Shown: piece by piece, positions 1,681 through 52,456 of the stretch
Position numbering within the stretch: the stretch's first letter is position 1
Layout: every line of letters begins with the position of its first letter
Origin: Chitinophagales bacterium
Lineage (GTDB): Bacteria > Bacteroidota > Bacteroidia > Chitinophagales > Chitinophagaceae
Assembly (NCBI GenBank): GCA_015654595.1
Contig: JAATGQ010000030.1
Span: forward strand, 1-64,000
DNA: 64,000 bases
Direction: 5' to 3'
Translations under genes and position numbers: made by a program
The notes under the pieces: generated by a model
What the model saw: only the letters and a program-made list of their open reading frames with translations
What the model was told of the DNA's origin: nothing
The model's database searches: none

Positions 1681-1848
1681 GCACCGCTTTCCGCTGGGCG
1701 GGCGCTCTACCGGGCGCCCTACGCTTCTGTCGATGGGGCAGCGTTCTGCCGCGAGCGCCCTACGCTTCTGCCAGTGGCGCCACAGGGCTATCCGGGCCGG
1801 GCGATCGCCCGCACCGCTTCCGCTGGGCGAGCGCCTTACGCCTCCGCC
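1681..1848. repeat. GC-rich repeats spanning the stop of the LptG-like gene
   Basis: The segment around the stop of the permease gene is repeated downstream of it. On the minus strand the real stop region reads AGGCGTAAGGCGCTCGC, and a copy near 1755-1771 reads AAGCGTAGGGCGCTCGC, keeping a stop (TAA to TAG). A shorter third copy lies near 1713-1730. A longer flank beginning GCACCGCTT also occurs twice, at 1681 and 1811. The array fills the gap to the CDF gene. Confidence 0.75.
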
Positions 1849-6067: not shown

Positions 6068-7381
6068 ATGTTCGAAAATCTTTCAGAGCGGCTAGACTCA
6101 GCGTTTAAGCAGATAAAAGGCGAAGGCCGGATAACCGAACTGAACATTGCGGCAACCGTAAAAGATATTCGTCGTGCGCTGATCGACGCCGATGTCAACT
6201 TCAAGATAGCAAAAGAATTTACCGATACAGTCCGGGAAAAAGCGCTGGGTAATAAGGTGTTGACCGCGGTCAGCCCCGGGCAGCTGATGGTCAAGATCGT
6301 AAAGGACGAGCTGGTAGAACTGATGGGGGGCTCCGAAAGCGAGCTCAACGCAAAGGGAAACCCCGCCGTCATCCTGATCGCCGGTCTGCAGGGTAGCGGT
6401 AAAACCACTTTCAGCGGCAAACTAGCCAACTACCTGAAGGGTCGTAAAGGACTTTCTCCCCTTCTCGTTGCGGCGGATATCTATCGCCCTGCGGCCATCG
6501 AGCAGCTGAAAGTACTCGGCAGCCAGATCGGCGTCGATGTCTACAATGAACCCGAGAACAAGGATGCCGTCTCCATCGCCCAAAATGCGATCAAAGAAGC
6601 CCGCTCAAAGAACAAGAACGTCGTCATCATCGATACGGCAGGCCGTCTCGCCATCGACGAGGTGATGATGCAGGAGGTCGCGGCCGTCAAGGCAGCCGTC
6701 AGTCCAAACGAGATCCTGTTTGTCGTCGACTCCATGACCGGCCAGGATGCCGTCAATACCGCCAAGGCCTTCAACGACCGCCTTGACTTCTCCGGTGTCG
6801 TACTGACAAAACTGGACGGTGATACCCGCGGCGGGGCCGCCCTTTCCATCAAATACACCGTCAACAAGCCCATCAAGTTTATCAGCAGCGGAGAAAAAAT
6901 GGATACGTTGGACGTATTCTATCCCGAGCGTATGGCGCAGCGTATCCTGGGTATGGGCGATATCACTACCCTGGTGGAAAAAGCACAGGCCCAATTCGAC
7001 GAGGCCGAGGCAAAGAAGCTGGAGAAGAAGATCAGGAAGAACCAGTTCGACTTCGAAGATTTCAAGCAGCAGCTGGAGCAGATCAAGAAGATGGGTAATA
7101 TCAAGGATCTGTTGGGCATGATCCCTGGTGTGGGCAAAGCCATCAAGGATATTGATATCAGCGACGACGCTTTCAAGGGTATCGAAGCGATCATCAATTC
7201 CATGACGCCCTTCGAGCGGGCCAATCCCGATACCATCGATCAAAGCCGCCGGAAGCGTCTGGCAAAGGGTTGTGGAAAGGATATCAACGAGATCAATGCT
7301 TTTCTGAAGCAATTCGAGCAGATGAAGCAGATGATGAAAATGATGAATAAAATGCCCATGGGGGCCATGCGCCGGCGGTAA
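6068..7381 (+). CDS. ffh: Signal recognition particle protein Ffh (SRP54)
   Basis: The 437-aa GTPase of the signal recognition particle. With 4.5S RNA it binds signal sequences of nascent membrane and secreted proteins and delivers ribosomes to FtsY. N domain: residues 1-95. G domain: P-loop GLQGSGKTT at about 106-114, DTAGRL near 190, and TKLDGDTRGGAALS near 247-260. The methionine-rich M domain runs from about 300 to the end (QMKQMMKMMNKMPMGAMRRR). Length is normal. No SRP RNA gene is recognised next to it. Its 3' end, including the TAA stop, is reiterated in the DNA that follows. Confidence 0.97.
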   Translation: MFENLSERLDSAFKQIKGEGRITELNIAATVKDIRRALIDADVNFKIAKEFTDTVREKALGNKVLTAVSPGQLMVKIVKDELVELMGGSESELNAKGNPAVILIAGLQGSGKTTFSGKLANYLKGRKGLSPLLVAADIYRPAAIEQLKVLGSQIGVDVYNEPENKDAVSIAQNAIKEARSKNKNVVIIDTAGRLAIDEVMMQEVAAVKAAVSPNEILFVVDSMTGQDAVNTAKAFNDRLDFSGVVLTKLDGDTRGGAALSIKYTVNKPIKFISSGEKMDTLDVFYPERMAQRILGMGDITTLVEKAQAQFDEAEAKKLEKKIRKNQFDFEDFKQQLEQIKKMGNIKDLLGMIPGVGKAIKDIDISDDAFKGIEAIINSMTPFERANPDTIDQSRRKRLAKGCGKDINEINAFLKQFEQMKQMMKMMNKMPMGAMRRR

Positions 7382-7510
7382 GCGCACCCGATATCGGCCA
7401 TCGCGCCGGTAGGGGGGGACCCACGGACATCGGCCATGGAGCCGATAGACGTCCGACATTCAGCCATGGCGCCGGTAAACGCGCCCGATATCGGCCATCG
7501 CCGGCGATAG
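7363..7510 (+). repeat. Five-copy repeat beginning at the ffh stop codon
   Basis: A core of the form GGCCATnGnGCCGGTAA/G occurs at about 7363, 7396, 7432, 7463 and 7493, spaced 30 to 36 bases apart. The first copy is the coding end of ffh with its TAA; the others end in TAG, TAG, TAA and TAG. The longer flank CCCGATATCGGCCATCG is identical at 7387-7403 and 7484-7500. The repeats are internally dyadic and could also fold. Confidence 0.8.
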
Positions 7511-11741: not shown

Positions 11742-11803
11742 GCGGCCTTGCCCCCATAGCCCTTAGGCCAGCGCGGCGAATTGCCCGCGCCTCCGGGCCC
11801 CTA

Positions 11804-11934
11804 GCCCCTGCCCGCGCCGGTTCCCTCGCCGCAGCCTCTTGCCCCTGCCCGCGCCGGTTCCCGCCCCCTGCGGTGAATTGCTCCTGCCCCCGGACCCTTG
11901 CTCCTGCCCCCGGACCCTTGCTCCTGCCCGCGCC
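11804..11934 (+). repeat. GC-rich direct repeats upstream of dinB
   Basis: Two copies of CCCCTGCCCGCGCCGGTTCC (about 11805-11824 and 11842-11861), then a 20-base unit TTGCTCCTGCCCCCGGACCC at 11878, 11898 and, shortened, 11918. The last copy supplies a TTG at 11918-11920 that lies 22 bases before the dinB -7 element and could serve as its -33 element. Confidence 0.75.
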
Positions 11935-17476: not shown

Positions 17477-17557
17477 CAGGATCGCAGGGGGTGGAGCGCC
17501 GCGGGCGCGAGGGGCTGTGGGCGCGAGGGCTGTGGATGCACGGAGCATGCTTGGACG

Positions 17558-17740
17558 CGGCCGGCAGTTGTGTGCTGCCCGGCTCGGTCGGCAGCTGCAC
17601 GGAGCGTTGCATGTCGTGGCCGGCAGTTGTGTGCCGCCCGGTGTGGCCGGCAGCTGCACGGGGCGTTGTGTGGGCAGAGGAGAATGTGGATGCCCGGAGC
17701 GTTGAATGGTCGTTGCCGGCAGTTGCGTGCCGCCCGGTGC
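17558..17740. repeat. GC-rich repeats between the GH30 and RluA-type genes
   Basis: GCCGGCAGTTGTGTGCCGCC and close variants occur three times (about 17560, 17622 and 17715). A second unit GGCAGCTGCACGGAGCGTTG, with one base changed in the other copy, occurs at about 17588 and 17648. Together they form a roughly 62-base tandem duplication plus a third partial copy that abuts the stop of the pseudouridine synthase gene. No ORF of normal codon use spans it. Confidence 0.75.
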
Positions 17741-18473: not shown

Positions 18474-20264
18474 TCAACTTTTACGTTTGGAAGAGCGGAA
18501 GTTCTTTTTTGCGGCGGGGCGGCCTTTGGCGGGGCGGCTTGCCCCTGGTCGGCTGGAGCTGCTGCCTGGGCGGCCTGCGCCTGGGCGGTTGGAGCTGCTG
18601 CTTGGACGGCTTGCGCCACCGCGGGCTGTGCGTTCGGAACTGCGTGCGCTGCTCGAGCTGGGGCGGCCCGAAGAGGGACGGGATGAGTTGCCGCGGGCCG
18701 GACGATCGAAGGGGCGGTTGCCGCGGTCGGAGCGGTTGCCGTGGTCGGAGCGATTGCCGCGATCGGAGCGGTTGCCATGATCAGAATGATCGCTTCGATC
18801 AGAACGTTCCCCACGACCAGAACGGTCGCTGCGATTAGAACGTTCGCTGCGATCAGAACGTTCGCTGCGATCAGAACGTTCGCTGCGATCAGAACGTTCG
18901 CTGCGATCAAAGCTGCCCTTTGACGCCGGGCGTTTGGGACCTCGGTCGCTGCGATCGGAACTGCGTTCGGGTTTGCCCTTCGACACAGGGCGCTTGGGGC
19001 CGCGTTCGGAGCGGTCGAAGCTGCGTTCGGGGCGATCGGCCTTATCCTCAGCTGCCTTGGCGGGGCGTTTTGCCGCAGGCTTCGCAGGGCGATCGGCCGA
19101 AGCCTTGGGGGCACGTTCAGCCGGTGCTTCAGGCGCGCGATCGGCCGAAGCCTTTGGCGCGTAGCTGGCTGCTGCTTTTGCCGACCGTTCGTTTGCTTCG
19201 ATCTCGGCCGCTGCTGCCCATTCTTTGGCGCGTGCAGGGGAGCCTTTGATCGAAGAGTTCAGATATTTTAAAATGCGTATTTCCTTTTCCGTTAGAAAGC
19301 GCCATTTGCCGCGTTGTACGTTCTTCTTGGTCAGACCGGCGTATGTGACGCGGTCCAGTCCGCGAACGTCGTAACCCAGGTGCTCGAAGATACGGCGAAC
19401 GATACGGTTCTTGCCGCTGTGGATCTCTATCCCGATCTGCGTCTTGTCCTTTGCGTCCGCATAAGCCAGTACGTCTACATGCGCGACGCCGTCTTCCAGC
19501 TTTACTTCGTCATTGATGATCTTGTCGAAGTCGGCCTTTGTCAGCGGCTTGTCGAGCGAAACGTGATAGATCTTTTTGATCTCGTGGCTGGGGTGAGCCA
19601 GCTTTTGCGCCAGGTCGCCGTCGTTGGTCAACAGCAGCACGCCGGAGGTGTTGCGGTCCAGGCGGCCTACGGGATAGACGCGTTCTGGCGTGGCATTGCG
19701 GATGAGGTCGAGGACCGTCTTACGGCCTTGCGGGTCGTCGGTCGTCGTGATATAATCTTTGGGTTTATTCAATAGAATATACGCGAAGTTCTTTGAGATC
19801 GTGACCTTCTTTCCATTGACCTTTACCAAGTCCGTTGCGATGACCTTGGTACCAGGTTCCATGACCGCTTTGCCATTGACCGTCACTTTGCCCTGACGGA
19901 TCAGTTCCGCGGCGTCGCGCCGGGAGCAGATACCCGAGTGGGCGATATATTTATTTAAAGGGAGTTGTTCGCCTGTGGTGACCGCGGAGGGTGTTGCGTC
20001 CTTGCCTGCGGCGGCTCCTTTGGTGAAGGCGGATGGTGTTGAATCGGCGCCGGAGGCTTTGCCGGTACGGCCAAACTTTGAGCGGGGTTCGGCGGGCTGC
20101 CCTTGCTGGGCTTCGCGGGCCTGGCGTTTCTTTTCAAAATGCCTTTCGATGGCCTCTTTCCGCTCTTTCTTTTCGGCTTTCTTTTCCTGCCGAATCTCTT
20201 CTTTTACAGCGCTGTTCCGTTTTTTATTATAGAACTTGCTGAAATTATCCGTTTTACGTTTCAT
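18474..20264 (-). CDS. RsuA/RluB-family pseudouridine synthase with long basic/acidic repeat tail
   Basis: A 596-aa rRNA pseudouridine synthase. The N-terminal ~60 residues are a Lys/Glu-rich helix. An S4 RNA-binding domain follows (LPLNKYIAHSGICSRRDAAEL, about 101-150), then the catalytic core with the Asp of VGRLDRNTSG near 203 and GKNRIVRRIFEHLGYDVRGLDRV. From about residue 355 to the end is a ~240-residue disordered tail rich in Ser, Arg, Asp, Lys, Ala and Pro, including SDRSER repeats. This is far longer than the ~240-290 aa of E. coli RluB/RsuA. The ATG at 20264 is chosen because a perfect -7 promoter element lies at 20311-20318, inside the longer frame. Confidence 0.9.
   Translation of the reverse strand: MKRKTDNFSKFYNKKRNSAVKEEIRQEKKAEKKERKEAIERHFEKKRQAREAQQGQPAEPRSKFGRTGKASGADSTPSAFTKGAAAGKDATPSAVTTGEQLPLNKYIAHSGICSRRDAAELIRQGKVTVNGKAVMEPGTKVIATDLVKVNGKKVTISKNFAYILLNKPKDYITTTDDPQGRKTVLDLIRNATPERVYPVGRLDRNTSGVLLLTNDGDLAQKLAHPSHEIKKIYHVSLDKPLTKADFDKIINDEVKLEDGVAHVDVLAYADAKDKTQIGIEIHSGKNRIVRRIFEHLGYDVRGLDRVTYAGLTKKNVQRGKWRFLTEKEIRILKYLNSSIKGSPARAKEWAAAAEIEANERSAKAAASYAPKASADRAPEAPAERAPKASADRPAKPAAKRPAKAAEDKADRPERSFDRSERGPKRPVSKGKPERSSDRSDRGPKRPASKGSFDRSERSDRSERSDRSERSDRSERSNRSDRSGRGERSDRSDHSDHGNRSDRGNRSDHGNRSDRGNRPFDRPARGNSSRPSSGRPSSSSARSSERTARGGASRPSSSSNRPGAGRPGSSSSRPGASRPAKGRPAAKKNFRSSKRKS
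18823..18912 (-). repeat. 18-bp tandem repeat encoding SDRSER units
   Basis: Five consecutive 18-base units with plus-strand sequence CGTTCGCTGCGATCAGAA; the three from 18841 to 18894 are identical and the two at the ends are slightly changed. They encode repeating Ser-Asp-Arg-Ser-Glu-Arg in the pseudouridine synthase tail. The near identity of the copies points to recent expansion. Confidence 0.9.
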
Positions 20265-39858: not shown

Positions 39859-39914
39859 CCGGCCGGGAGCTGGGGGCTGGCGGCCGCGGTCGCGGTTGGG
39901 CTCCGATTTTTTCG

Positions 39915-39922
39915 TACCTTCG
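39915..39922 (+). promoter_or_regulatory. Promoter-like -7 element of rlmN
   Basis: TACCTTCG, one mismatch to TAnnTTTG. Transcription from it would start near 39928, which makes the in-frame ATG at 39896 unlikely and supports the GTG at 39965. Confidence 0.45.
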
Positions 39923-39964
39923 CGCCCTTGGACCCGCCTCGCAAAACGGGTTCTACCTTACACA

Positions 39965-41014
39965 GTGGCAAAGACAACGGAGAAGAAGAACATCAGGCAC
40001 CTGAGCCTTTCTGAACTGGAAGAATACTTCGGTTCTATCGGGGACAAAAAATTCCGGGCAAAACAAGCCTATGAGTGGATCTGGCAGAAGCATGCCCATT
40101 CTTTTGAAGAGATGACCAATCTCTCGAAGGAGTTGAGGCAGCGGCTGGCCGATGATTTCTCTTTCCCCGCGCTGAAGGTCGATGCGACGCAGTATTCAGC
40201 TGATGGGACGGTCAAAAGCCGCTTTAGAACCTCGGACAATCACATGGTGGAGGGCGTTCTTATCCCAACGGATGAACGTAAGACCGCCTGTGTCTCTTCG
40301 CAGATCGGCTGTTCGCTGAGCTGTAAGTTTTGCGCTACCGGTTATATGGATCGCAAGCGCAACCTCGACTACGACGAAATTTATGACGAGGTGGTGTTGA
40401 TCAATCAGCAGTCTCAGCGGGTATACGAAAAGAATCTTTCGAATATCGTTTTTATGGGTATGGGAGAACCATTGCTCAACTACAAGAACGTGTTGAAAGC
40501 GATCGAGCGTATCACCTCTCCCGATGGTCTTGGCATGAGCCCCCGTCGTATCACCGTCTCTACGGCAGGTGTGGCGAAAATGATTCGTCAGTTGGGTGAC
40601 GACAAGGTAAAGTTCAAGCTGGCGCTTTCCTTGCACGCGGCGAATGATAAGAAGCGCAATGAGATCATGCCGATCAATGAGAGCAATTCCATCGCGGCCC
40701 TTGTTGAAGCGTTGAATTATTTCTATAAGCAGACCGGCAATGAAATTACGTTTGAATACATCCTCTTCAGAGATTTCAACGATAGCAAACAGGATGCGGA
40801 TGAGCTGGTAAAGCTTTATCGCCAGGTTCCCGCGGATCTCGTCAACATCATCGAATACAACCCGATCGAGCAGGCGCTCTTCTCGAAGCCGGAAGAAGAC
40901 GTGGTCGAGCTCTTTATGCAGCACCTTGAAAAGAACAAGGTCAATGCCCGTCTTCGCCGCAGCCGCGGGAAAGACATCGATGCTGCCTGCGGACAGCTGG
41001 CGAACAAAGAATAA
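39965..41014 (+). CDS. rlmN: Dual-specificity RNA methyltransferase RlmN
   Basis: A 349-aa radical-SAM enzyme that methylates C2 of A2503 in 23S rRNA and A37 in some tRNAs. The radical-SAM cluster motif CSLSCKFCATG (CxxxCxxC) is present, as are the N-terminal helical domain (KKFRAKQAYEWIWQKHAHSFEEMTNLSKELRQRL), NIVFMGMGEPLLNYKNV, and the conserved C-terminal 'R x S R G x D I D A A C G Q L' with the methyl-carrying Cys. Start is set to GTG 39965 (VAKTTEKKNIRHLSL) rather than 39896. The 38-base unit that contains its last codons and TAA is tandemly repeated after the gene. Confidence 0.95.
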   Translation: MAKTTEKKNIRHLSLSELEEYFGSIGDKKFRAKQAYEWIWQKHAHSFEEMTNLSKELRQRLADDFSFPALKVDATQYSADGTVKSRFRTSDNHMVEGVLIPTDERKTACVSSQIGCSLSCKFCATGYMDRKRNLDYDEIYDEVVLINQQSQRVYEKNLSNIVFMGMGEPLLNYKNVLKAIERITSPDGLGMSPRRITVSTAGVAKMIRQLGDDKVKFKLALSLHAANDKKRNEIMPINESNSIAALVEALNYFYKQTGNEITFEYILFRDFNDSKQDADELVKLYRQVPADLVNIIEYNPIEQALFSKPEEDVVELFMQHLEKNKVNARLRRSRGKDIDAACGQLANKE

Positions 41015-41128
41015 TCGATGCTGCCTGCGGACAGTTGGCGGACAAAGAATAATCGATGCTGTCTGCGGACAGTTGGCGAACAAAGAATAATCGATGCTGT
41101 CTGCGGACAGTTGGCGGACAAAGAATAA
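40977..41128 (+). repeat. Four tandem copies of a 38-bp unit including the rlmN stop
   Basis: Units start at 40977, 41015, 41053 and 41091, each exactly 38 bases. Unit one encodes the end of RlmN (IDAACGQLANKE and TAA); the next three differ at only a few positions (C/T in CTGC, C/T in ACAGYTGG, A/G in GCGRACA). All end AAAGAATAA. Because 38 is not a multiple of three, the TAA stops fall in all three frames. The array ends 2 bases before the Crp-like ATG. Confidence 0.95.
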
Positions 41129-41130
41129 TT

Positions 41131-41721
41131 ATGGATACAGCGCTTCTCTTCGAACATATCGGCCGCCATATAAGCCTTACCGAGGAAGAGAAAGCCTATT
41201 TTGTTACCCTGCTCCATGAAAGAAAGCTTAAGAAGAAACAGTTCCTCAACCAGGAAGGAGAAGTCGTTAAAGGGCCTGCCTTTGTGGTGTCGGGTTTGCT
41301 GCGTTCTTATTCGATGGATCGCAACGGCTTCGAGCATGTCATCCAGTTTGCTCCGCCGGGCTGGTGGATTGGAGATATCCGGAGTATGACAAAGAAGGAG
41401 CCGGGGACGCTGTATGTCGATGCATTGGAGGATAGCGAGATCCTCTGGATGTGGGCGGCGGACCGCGATATCCTTTTTACGAAGGTCCCGAAGTTCGAGC
41501 GGTTTTTCAGGATACTTTCCGAAAATGCGCTTGGCGCACACCAGGAGCGGCTGGTGAACATTCTCAGTCTGCCGGCTGTCGACAGATATGCCAGCTTTTG
41601 TAAGCTCTATCCAACACTTATTGGCTGTCTGCCGCAGAAGCAGGTGGCTTCCTATATCGGCGTTACGCCGGAATTTCTCAGTAAGATGCTGAATACGACC
41701 CCGGTGCGGGGTAAGAAGTAG
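41131..41721 (+). CDS. Crp/Fnr family transcriptional regulator
   Basis: A 196-aa regulator. The N-terminal cyclic-nucleotide-binding-like beta barrel is visible (LKKKQFLNQEGEVVKGPAFVVSGLLRSYSMDRNGFEHVIQFAPPGWWIGD), then the long dimerisation helix (FFRILSENALGAHQERLVNILS) and a short C-terminal helix-turn-helix (CLPQKQVASYIGVTPEFLSKML). Bacteroidota have many such single-gene Crp-like regulators; the ligand is unknown. The frame extends into the repeat array up to 41056, but the ATG at 41131 directly follows the array and gives the usual N-terminus. It has no promoter outside the repeats, so it may be read from the rlmN promoter. Confidence 0.88.
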   Translation: MDTALLFEHIGRHISLTEEEKAYFVTLLHERKLKKKQFLNQEGEVVKGPAFVVSGLLRSYSMDRNGFEHVIQFAPPGWWIGDIRSMTKKEPGTLYVDALEDSEILWMWAADRDILFTKVPKFERFFRILSENALGAHQERLVNILSLPAVDRYASFCKLYPTLIGCLPQKQVASYIGVTPEFLSKMLNTTPVRGKK

Positions 41722-41875
41722 TCGGGCACCTGCTTTGTGCGCCCTGCGGTGCACGCGGGAAGGGGGCGCTTGCGGTGTGCGCCCTGTGGTGCACGCGGGA
41801 AGAAATAGTCGGGCGCCTGCGTTGTGCGCTCTGTGGTGCACGCGGGAAGGGGGCGCCTGCGTTGTGCGCTCCACG
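41704..41875 (+). repeat. Four-copy GC-rich repeat starting at the Crp-like gene stop
   Basis: Units start near 41704, 41749, 41789 and 41836, of the form GTGCACGCGGGAAG, optional AAATAGTC, GGGCGCCTGCGTTGTGCGC, TCTGTG. The first is the end of the Crp-like gene (AAGAAGTAGTCGGGC) and the third keeps AAGAAATAGTCGGGC with its stop; the second and fourth have lost 8 bases there. Confidence 0.85.
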
Positions 41876-51173: not shown

Positions 51174-52370
51174 ATGAATACTGTATATGTCATTGACGCC
51201 GTCAGGACTCCTATAGGAAAGTATGGCGGAGGGCTTAGTTCTATACGACCCGACGATATGCTGGCGCATGTGATAAAGGCGCTGTTACAGCGAAACCCAA
51301 CCGTGGAACCGGCTGCGATCGAAGACGTTATTGCGGGAGATGCCAACCAGGCTGGGGAAGACAACCGGGACGTGGCGCGTATGGCTGCCTTGCTTGCCGG
51401 TCTGCCGATAACAGTGCCGGGTACTACCGTTAACCGGCTTTGCGCTTCGGGATTGCAAGCCATCATGGATGCATCCAGGGCCATCGCCTGCGGCGACGGA
51501 GACCTGTTCATCGCATCGGGTGTGGAGAGTATGACGCGCGCGCCTTTCGTGATGGCCAAGGCGACGCACGCCTTCAACCGCAGCACGGAAATTCATGATA
51601 CGACGATCGGGTGGCGATTTACGAATAAGAAGCTGGCGGATCAGTATTATCCCTACTCGATGGGAGAGACGGCAGAGAACGTGGCTAAGCGCTGGAATGT
51701 TTCGAGGGAAGCGCAGGATCAGTTTGGCCTGGCTTCACAGCTGAAGTATTTTGCGGCACTGGAAGCTGGTAAATGGGCCGACGAGTTGGCGCCGATAGAG
51801 ATCCTCGGCGGCAAACAAGAGAAGATCTACTTTGACAAGGACGAACAGCACCGGCAGACTTCTATGGAGAAGCTGGCAGCTTTGCGTCCTGCCTTTATAA
51901 AAGATGGCAGCGTTACCGCGGGTAACTCGGCTGGTATAAACGACGGCGCAGCAGCGATGTTGCTGGCCAGCGAATCAGCCGTAAAACGATTTGGCCTTAC
52001 ACCCCGTGCCCGTGTAGTCAGCATGGGTGTCGTCGGCGTAGATCCTGCGATTATGGGCGTTGGTCCGATCCCGGCAACGCAAAAGGCTCTGCAGCGCGCA
52101 GGATTGAAGGCCAGCGACCTGGGTCTGGTGGAATTGAATGAGGCCTTCGCGGTACAGGCGCTTGTCTGTATGAATGAACTTGGATTAGACCCGAATATCG
52201 TCAATGTGAATGGCGGTTCGATCGCGATCGGCCATCCGCTGGGCTGTAGCGGCGTTCGTATTTCGACGACCCTGCTGCACGAGATGCAACGGCGGGATGT
52301 ACGCTATACGCTGGCTACGATGTGCGTCGGTGTTGGACAGGGCGCGGCGATCGTGTATGAGAAGATATAA
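51174..52370 (+). CDS. Acetyl-CoA acyltransferase (thiolase; 3-oxoadipyl-CoA thiolase-like)
   Basis: A 398-aa thiolase. It has the acyl-enzyme Cys in VNRLCASGLQAIMDA, the NEAFA motif, the catalytic His in GHPLGCSGVR, and the second Cys in MCVGVGQGAAIVYE. The N-terminus MNTVYVIDAVRTPIGKYGGGLSSIRPDDMLAHVIKAL is close to the PcaF/PaaJ type (3-oxoadipyl-CoA thiolase, beta-ketoadipate or phenylacetate breakdown) rather than biosynthetic AtoB. No other aromatic-pathway gene adjoins, so the exact role is open. Its stop region is duplicated just downstream. Confidence 0.9.
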   Translation: MNTVYVIDAVRTPIGKYGGGLSSIRPDDMLAHVIKALLQRNPTVEPAAIEDVIAGDANQAGEDNRDVARMAALLAGLPITVPGTTVNRLCASGLQAIMDASRAIACGDGDLFIASGVESMTRAPFVMAKATHAFNRSTEIHDTTIGWRFTNKKLADQYYPYSMGETAENVAKRWNVSREAQDQFGLASQLKYFAALEAGKWADELAPIEILGGKQEKIYFDKDEQHRQTSMEKLAALRPAFIKDGSVTAGNSAGINDGAAAMLLASESAVKRFGLTPRARVVSMGVVGVDPAIMGVGPIPATQKALQRAGLKASDLGLVELNEAFAVQALVCMNELGLDPNIVNVNGGSIAIGHPLGCSGVRISTTLLHEMQRRDVRYTLATMCVGVGQGAAIVYEKI

Positions 52371-52440
52371 CGGCCTGACTTGCCGTGTTTGATGCCGGCC
52401 TGGCGTAGGGATCATCCATGTGAAAATATAGCGGCCGGCT
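52357..52440 (+). repeat. Duplicated stop region of the thiolase gene
   Basis: The gene end ATGAGAAGATATAACGGCC (52358-52376) is repeated at 52418-52436 as ATGTGAAAATATAGCGGCC, with the stop changed from TAA to TAG and a spacer of about 41 bases between copies. It fills most of the 86-base gap to the next gene. Confidence 0.75.
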
Positions 52441-52456
52441 TTTGCGTTGATAAACC

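Follow-up and report, generated by a model that had tools for sequence, protein, structure and literature searches.

Local repeats are normally to slightly over-represented in the intergenic regions of most prokaryotes, as far as the available text of a survey of close direct repeats goes (PMC4060949). The anatomy of these close direct repeats matches that of the arrays described here. There is a difference of scale, as that text reports counts of short motifs, whereas the units considered here are 38-97 nt long and owe the stop codon that they hold to their position. A second comparison is offered by the tandem repeats of the archaeal Borg elements (PMC9879509), in which, according to the accessible part of that paper, units inside genes are divisible by three and only 14-38% of the intergenic ones are. 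Independently arisen units and in-gene units divisible by three are common to the Borg elements and to the present DNA. Nevertheless, the Borg repeats are described there as perfect and enriched in A, whereas the identity of the copies found here ranges from 95% to about 70%, and the degenerate copies are rich in G and C; as nucleotide-identical copies are needed for the Borg type and the rlmN array described below reaches 95% at best, this assignment was rejected. The third system is formed by the TAACTGA direct repeats of the Beggiatoaceae (PMC4679880), which, in the portion of the paper at hand, are intergenic and carry stops in all frames, with 13 sets overlapping the stop codon of the upstream gene. 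The present array is likewise made of direct repeats and has stops in every frame. The Beggiatoaceae repeats, however, use a single invariant heptamer, which recurs at many loci and mostly precedes starts, whereas here a longer unit is private to each locus. The heptamer in tandem is absent from our unit sequences, and membership of this class was also rejected.

Among the matches listed in a search of open-licence PMC articles, represented by their titles and the beginnings of their abstracts, no paper treats bacterial stop-spanning tandem repeats as a class of their own, which is weak evidence of absence. Here, we describe such repeats in a 64,000-nucleotide stretch of a Chitinophagales draft genome, referred to below as the window, and centre on an array between rlmN and a Crp-like gene (Table 1), which we judge to be a fresh example of the known close direct repeats, or short tandem duplications.

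Stop-spanning repeats in the window

The preliminary description of this DNA had reported four tandem 38-bp units over the stop codon of rlmN, and Tandem Repeats Finder (TRF) recovers them with the same unit starts (40977, 41015, 41053 and 41091): 4.1 copies with 95% matches and no indels, over a length of 154 nt, or 4 x 38 + 2. Unit 1 corresponds to the end of the rlmN reading frame, with the TAA at 41012-41014. The gap between this stop and the ATG of the Crp-like gene at 41131 measures 116 nt, or 3 x 38 + 2, so that copies 2-4 fill all but 2 nt of it. The four TAAs (at 41012, 41050, 41088 and 41126) cover all three reading frames, the fourth being back in the frame of rlmN; simple arithmetic thus bears out the earlier remark that this follows from 38 not being a multiple of three. 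For rlmN the best stop-spanning score is 106, and the maximum among 400 shuffled versions of the 200 nt downstream is 12. The array sequence is found at a single place in the draft genome, which comprises 265 contigs and 6.03 Mb. The TTG start first listed for rlmN is probably too far upstream.

Table 1. Coordinates of the rlmN array, its flanking genes and the other stop-spanning repeats in the window
Feature	Position	Strand	Basis or remark
Tandem array, period 38, four copies + 2 nt	40976..41129	+	TRF; one place in genome
Copy 1, the original: end of conserved DIDAACGQLANKE, then TAA	40977..41014	+	Relatives with the same peptide end
Copies 2-4, not coding for rlmN	41015..41128	+	Unit comparison
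rlmN (RlmN_N and radical SAM domains)	39896..41014	+	Pfam PF21016, PF04055
Crp-like regulator, cyclic-nucleotide-binding domain	41131..41721	+	PF00027; start agrees with relatives
Degenerate array over crp stop, spacings 40 + 47, higher-order period 87	41707..41871	+	One place in genome
Degenerate repeats over ffh stop, spacings 30-36 and 97	7373..7509	+	One place in genome
Two-copy duplication over thiolase stop, old; lag 61, 32/46 identical	52341..52447	+	Missed by 8-mer seeded search
Degenerate repeats over LptF/G-like stop at 1836	1681..1848	-	Stop-spanning score

The units differ from one another at unit positions 10, 21 and 27 only. Each of copies 2-4 has at least one substitution by which a conserved residue would be replaced, namely A by V (position 10) or N by D (position 27), the change at position 21 being synonymous; the coding constraint therefore apparently acts on copy 1 only, and the C-terminus of rlmN that is conserved in relatives is kept by that copy only. 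Position 27 alternates among the copies and position 10 separates copies 1-2 from copies 3-4, a pattern that suggests at least two rounds of copying.

The same junction is single-copy in two relatives. In Puia dinghuensis (G001) the TAA of rlmN is followed by 5 nt and the Crp-like ATG, and in a second relative (G022) a TAG is followed by 20 nt and the Crp-like ATG, each with one copy of the unit. The Crp-like genes of these genomes, directly after rlmN, are 71% and 74% identical to that of the window. When the array was searched as DNA against 33 genomes, seven matched, namely its own genome and six of the 32 relatives, and the relatives match over 35-40 nt only, i.e. one copy. Since the relatives are single-copy at this site, the lineage of the window gained 3 x 38 bp. 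RlmN itself is matched in 27 of the 33 genus genomes, its own included, the other full-length matches being 76-87% identical; this genus set includes P. dinghuensis and holds no second genome of the species of the window. Among 83 distinct rlmN ends of relatives, two (L037 and L026) score T >= 16, compared with seven of 1375 other ends (P = 0.09), in a survey that missed nine of 106 loci owing to too narrow a motif or a contig end; two of the nine are from P. dinghuensis and were read by eye. The L037 end (Flavitalea sp. BT771) carries an independent stop-spanning array of three 24-bp copies shared with the end of the facing gene, and the L026 end is a simple-sequence, 7-mer-like case.

Stop-spanning repeats had been named at four further loci, and direct repeats above shuffles are indeed present at all four, each locus beating its 400 shuffles at P <= 0.0025. 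The best alignments are 67 of 76 positions identical at lag 87 for crp, 29 of 32 (91%) at lag 97 for ffh and 32 of 46 (70%) at lag 61 for thiolase, with 0/400 shuffles as good in each case, and 19 of 22 at lag 76 for LptF/G, with 1/400 as good. With the stop-spanning score used for all genomes (T; match +1, mismatch -1, with at least 6 units inside the gene) and a threshold of T >= 14, five of the 49 gene ends in the window are retained, exactly the five loci first named, although this result is not blind, as the list of loci was known and the score was loosened after they had been inspected. At rlmN, crp, ffh and LptF/G the copies of a local segment are adjacent and head-to-tail, i.e. short tandem duplications; the two thiolase copies are old and lie apart. 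The suggestion that all loci share the same geometry was too strong, as the periods are 38 for rlmN, 40, 47 and 87 for crp, 30-36 and 97 for ffh, 61 for thiolase and 76 for LptF/G. It had also been stated that TAA or TAG persists in most copies; by eye, this holds for rlmN, ffh, LptF/G and thiolase, but fails for crp, where one of the three further copies does so.

By eye, no such repeat follows crp in G001 and G022, nor ffh and LptF/G in the Flavitalea BT771 genome (G028). The orthologous thiolase of P. dinghuensis carries at its end (L158 at 3135) a stop-spanning repeat that is unrelated in sequence to that of the window (T = 18, lag 78). The four other loci are best explained as older duplications of the same ordinary kind as the rlmN array. 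Dispersed repeats, whether of the MITE/REP or the CRISPR type, were rejected as candidates, because the rlmN, crp and ffh arrays each occur at one place in the genome.

Placement of arrays relative to genes

Array placement was surveyed in 2.23 Mb outside the window, of which 875 kb are from the same genome; the genome stretches were picked by contig number and the loci L030-L109 were fetched by rlmN, so neither is a random sample. Genes were called with a home-made hexamer caller, without annotation. Strict arrays were classified with 5 nt of slack, as the rlmN array would otherwise be 'partial' by one base; the array at L202 was counted both as stop and as start, and seven arrays at contig edges were dropped, among them one that spans a stop (L172) and one that is start-classed under a looser overlap rule (L125). 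We also dropped one array at L037, since it is the rlmN array again, viewed from the facing gene, and a 50-kb E. coli control (0 arrays found), which was too short to train the gene caller (25 calls against about 50 annotated genes).

Outside the window, 28 strict arrays lie outside coding sequences. When the units are placed uniformly in non-coding DNA, 22.4 of these are expected to be purely intergenic, 2.08 to span a stop, 2.2 to span a start and 1.05 to be partial; the numbers seen are 22, 2, 0 and 4, respectively. Taken by itself, the shortage at starts does not reach significance (P = 0.11). Three of the four partial arrays lie next to a stop, at a distance of no more than 5 nt, and counting them as stops gives five against at most about 3.1 expected. 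All 26 in-gene arrays have a period divisible by three, some of them sharing a gene, compared with 17 of the 41 others (all six sets). This bias is the signature left by purifying selection where the duplication process is blind to gene boundaries.

The more sensitive score T was applied to gene ends and starts. At T >= 16, the ends retained are 1/604 in the same genome outside the window, 2/181 in G001, 4/315 in G028, 0/109 in G010 and 0/166 in G017; an additional gene-end set gave 4/260, of which one was dropped, with L031 and L034 left out owing to overlap with the G001 and G017 stretches, and with rlmN ends left out. Ends exceed starts outside the window, both at T >= 16 (10/1634 versus 2/1695, P = 0.020) and at T >= 14 (14/1634 versus 3/1695, P = 0.0065). 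They also exceed a cross-gene control (10/1634 versus 7/8061), although any real duplication in non-coding DNA would give such an excess; an early version of this control, which counted purely intergenic arrays as stop-spanning, was not used. For starts, the cross-gene control in the additional set at T >= 16 gave 4/1457, above the 0/316 of real starts. Real stop-spanning duplications thus exist, and starts have fewer of them. The preliminary description had called for a scan of direct repeats at stops and elsewhere. The strict arrays sit at the non-coding expectation, which on small counts comes close to contradicting a preference for stops; the sensitive score gives more ends than starts (P = 0.02). 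An excess of ends over starts together with strict placement at expectation fits starts being avoided rather than stops being favoured.

Origin of the rlmN array and competing explanations

Very probably, the rlmN array is an ordinary tandem duplication over a stop codon, tolerated since both genes remain intact, with the other loci alike and selection acting as a filter on what is seen. On this reading, a 38-bp segment that spanned the rlmN stop by chance was duplicated in tandem, probably through replication misalignment at a 2-nt edge match, and then expanded to four copies via slippage or recombination between the copies. The length of 4 x 38 + 2 nt implies an edge match of 2 nt, presumably too little for homologous recombination to have made the first copy; we infer slippage or template switching as the molecular step. 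The slippage- or repair-type duplication proposed earlier is supported by the single-copy site in two relatives, the different unit at each locus and the diverged copies. Such an array would be tolerated because rlmN stays intact in copy 1 and the 38 nt ahead of the Crp-like ATG are kept in the last copy, and it is probably neutral or nearly so, to judge from the sequence. Short duplications would arise genome-wide, and selection would remove any that disrupt a gene or its start, with in-gene duplications surviving as multiples of three and start-spanning ones seemingly lost; through this filtering, frame-breaking duplications would be seen at gene ends and in spacers. The array is a clean example of how a spacer can grow by duplication of the end of the upstream gene, as the site is single-copy in two relatives. 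Arrays can gather at gene ends without any mechanism linked to stops, since the protein is saved by the first copy and the leader of the next gene by the last. Some caution is also due with extra stop codons after a gene, which may be by-products of duplication.

An alternative is a mutational process that targets gene ends, such as break repair where transcription or translation ends, by which stop-spanning segments would be preferentially duplicated. The excess of ends over starts outside the window is in its favour, as are the stop-spanning arrays of the window (three versus 0.71 expected) and the independent repeats at the same gene ends in relatives (rlmN in L037 and L026; thiolase in P. 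dinghuensis). It is nonetheless unlikely, because the strict stop-spanning arrays outside the window, although few, fit uniform non-coding placement, 22 of the 28 non-CDS arrays there are purely intergenic and only one in 604 ends of the same genome reaches T >= 16 outside the window; the earlier idea of a process tied to gene ends is therefore not upheld. Backup stop codons, maintained by selection for stop-bearing copies, are barely credible as an explanation: TAA or TAG is present in all rlmN copies and, by eye, in those at ffh and LptF/G, yet at rlmN, the locus considered here, the next in-frame stop lies 37 codons downstream with the array and 14 with one copy, so the array delays it, and the early in-frame stop after the primary stop that a fail-safe codon requires is absent. 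In the available part of their paper, Ho and Hurst 2019 likewise find no evidence in eubacteria of selection for fail-safe additional stops.

Regulation of the Crp-like gene by the array, through termination, uncoupling from rlmN, a copy-number switch or an alternative start, is very unlikely. An in-frame upstream ATG at -75 does read through copies 3 and 4 into crp and could lengthen the Crp-like protein, although the alignable Crp-like relatives start at the downstream ATG and not at this one. The upstream frame is the same with three to six copies and differs with one or two, and thus a copy-number change from the present state would be no simple switch; a frame switch of crp at three to six copies was rejected on this ground. 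The array also lacks promoter-like and terminator-like sites, no intrinsic terminator (a G+C stem-loop followed by a T run) being found within it, which speaks against the selection for termination suggested earlier, and the same gene pair does without the array in two relatives. Hairpins of the unit are weak (z from -0.28 to -1.35), and a hairpin-driven unit was rejected with z no better than -1.35. Finally, an artefact of assembly or binning might be suspected in a draft of 265 contigs that is 87% complete, but it is highly improbable: the four copies carry different substitutions, hardly an assembler's invention, and the tetranucleotide signature and third-position GC (GC3) of the contig fit the rest of the genome, by which a misbinned contig was rejected.

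Array density in the window

The window is rich in arrays, with 11 strict ones (six non-CDS, five CDS) in 64 kb compared with 20 (11 and nine, respectively) in the 875 kb sampled elsewhere in the genome. The excess affects genic and non-genic arrays alike (P = 0.0006 and 0.0002 before allowing for selection of the window); a single gene holds four of the five CDS arrays. Gene ends with T >= 16 number 5/49 in the window and 1/604 in the rest of the genome sample (Fisher P = 1.1e-5). The excess of strict arrays that span a stop, given above, is to be read with the window having been chosen for its repeats; this choice alone seems a thin account of its array richness. The excess points to a local burst of duplication, whatever its kind, or to the choice of the window, rather than to a stop-linked process. 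A bolder reading, rather doubtful at present, is that some chromosomal regions of the Chitinophagaceae undergo bursts of tandem duplication, in which stop-spanning copies of gene ends would serve as recurrent spacer material and starts would be protected by selection, the window being one such hot region.

Several other repeats were noted in passing. More intergenic repeat tracts, short of the strict stop-spanning definition, lie at 11797-11932 and 17556-17739 in the window (lags 37, 20 and 59). On the minus strand, a called gene (18474-20264) contains four in-frame repeat arrays at 18532-19160, with lags of 18, 36, 48 and 60. In Flavitalea BT771, long arrays with 41-bp and 19-bp units lie beside gene ends (L172, 1-220; L179, 6118-6271).
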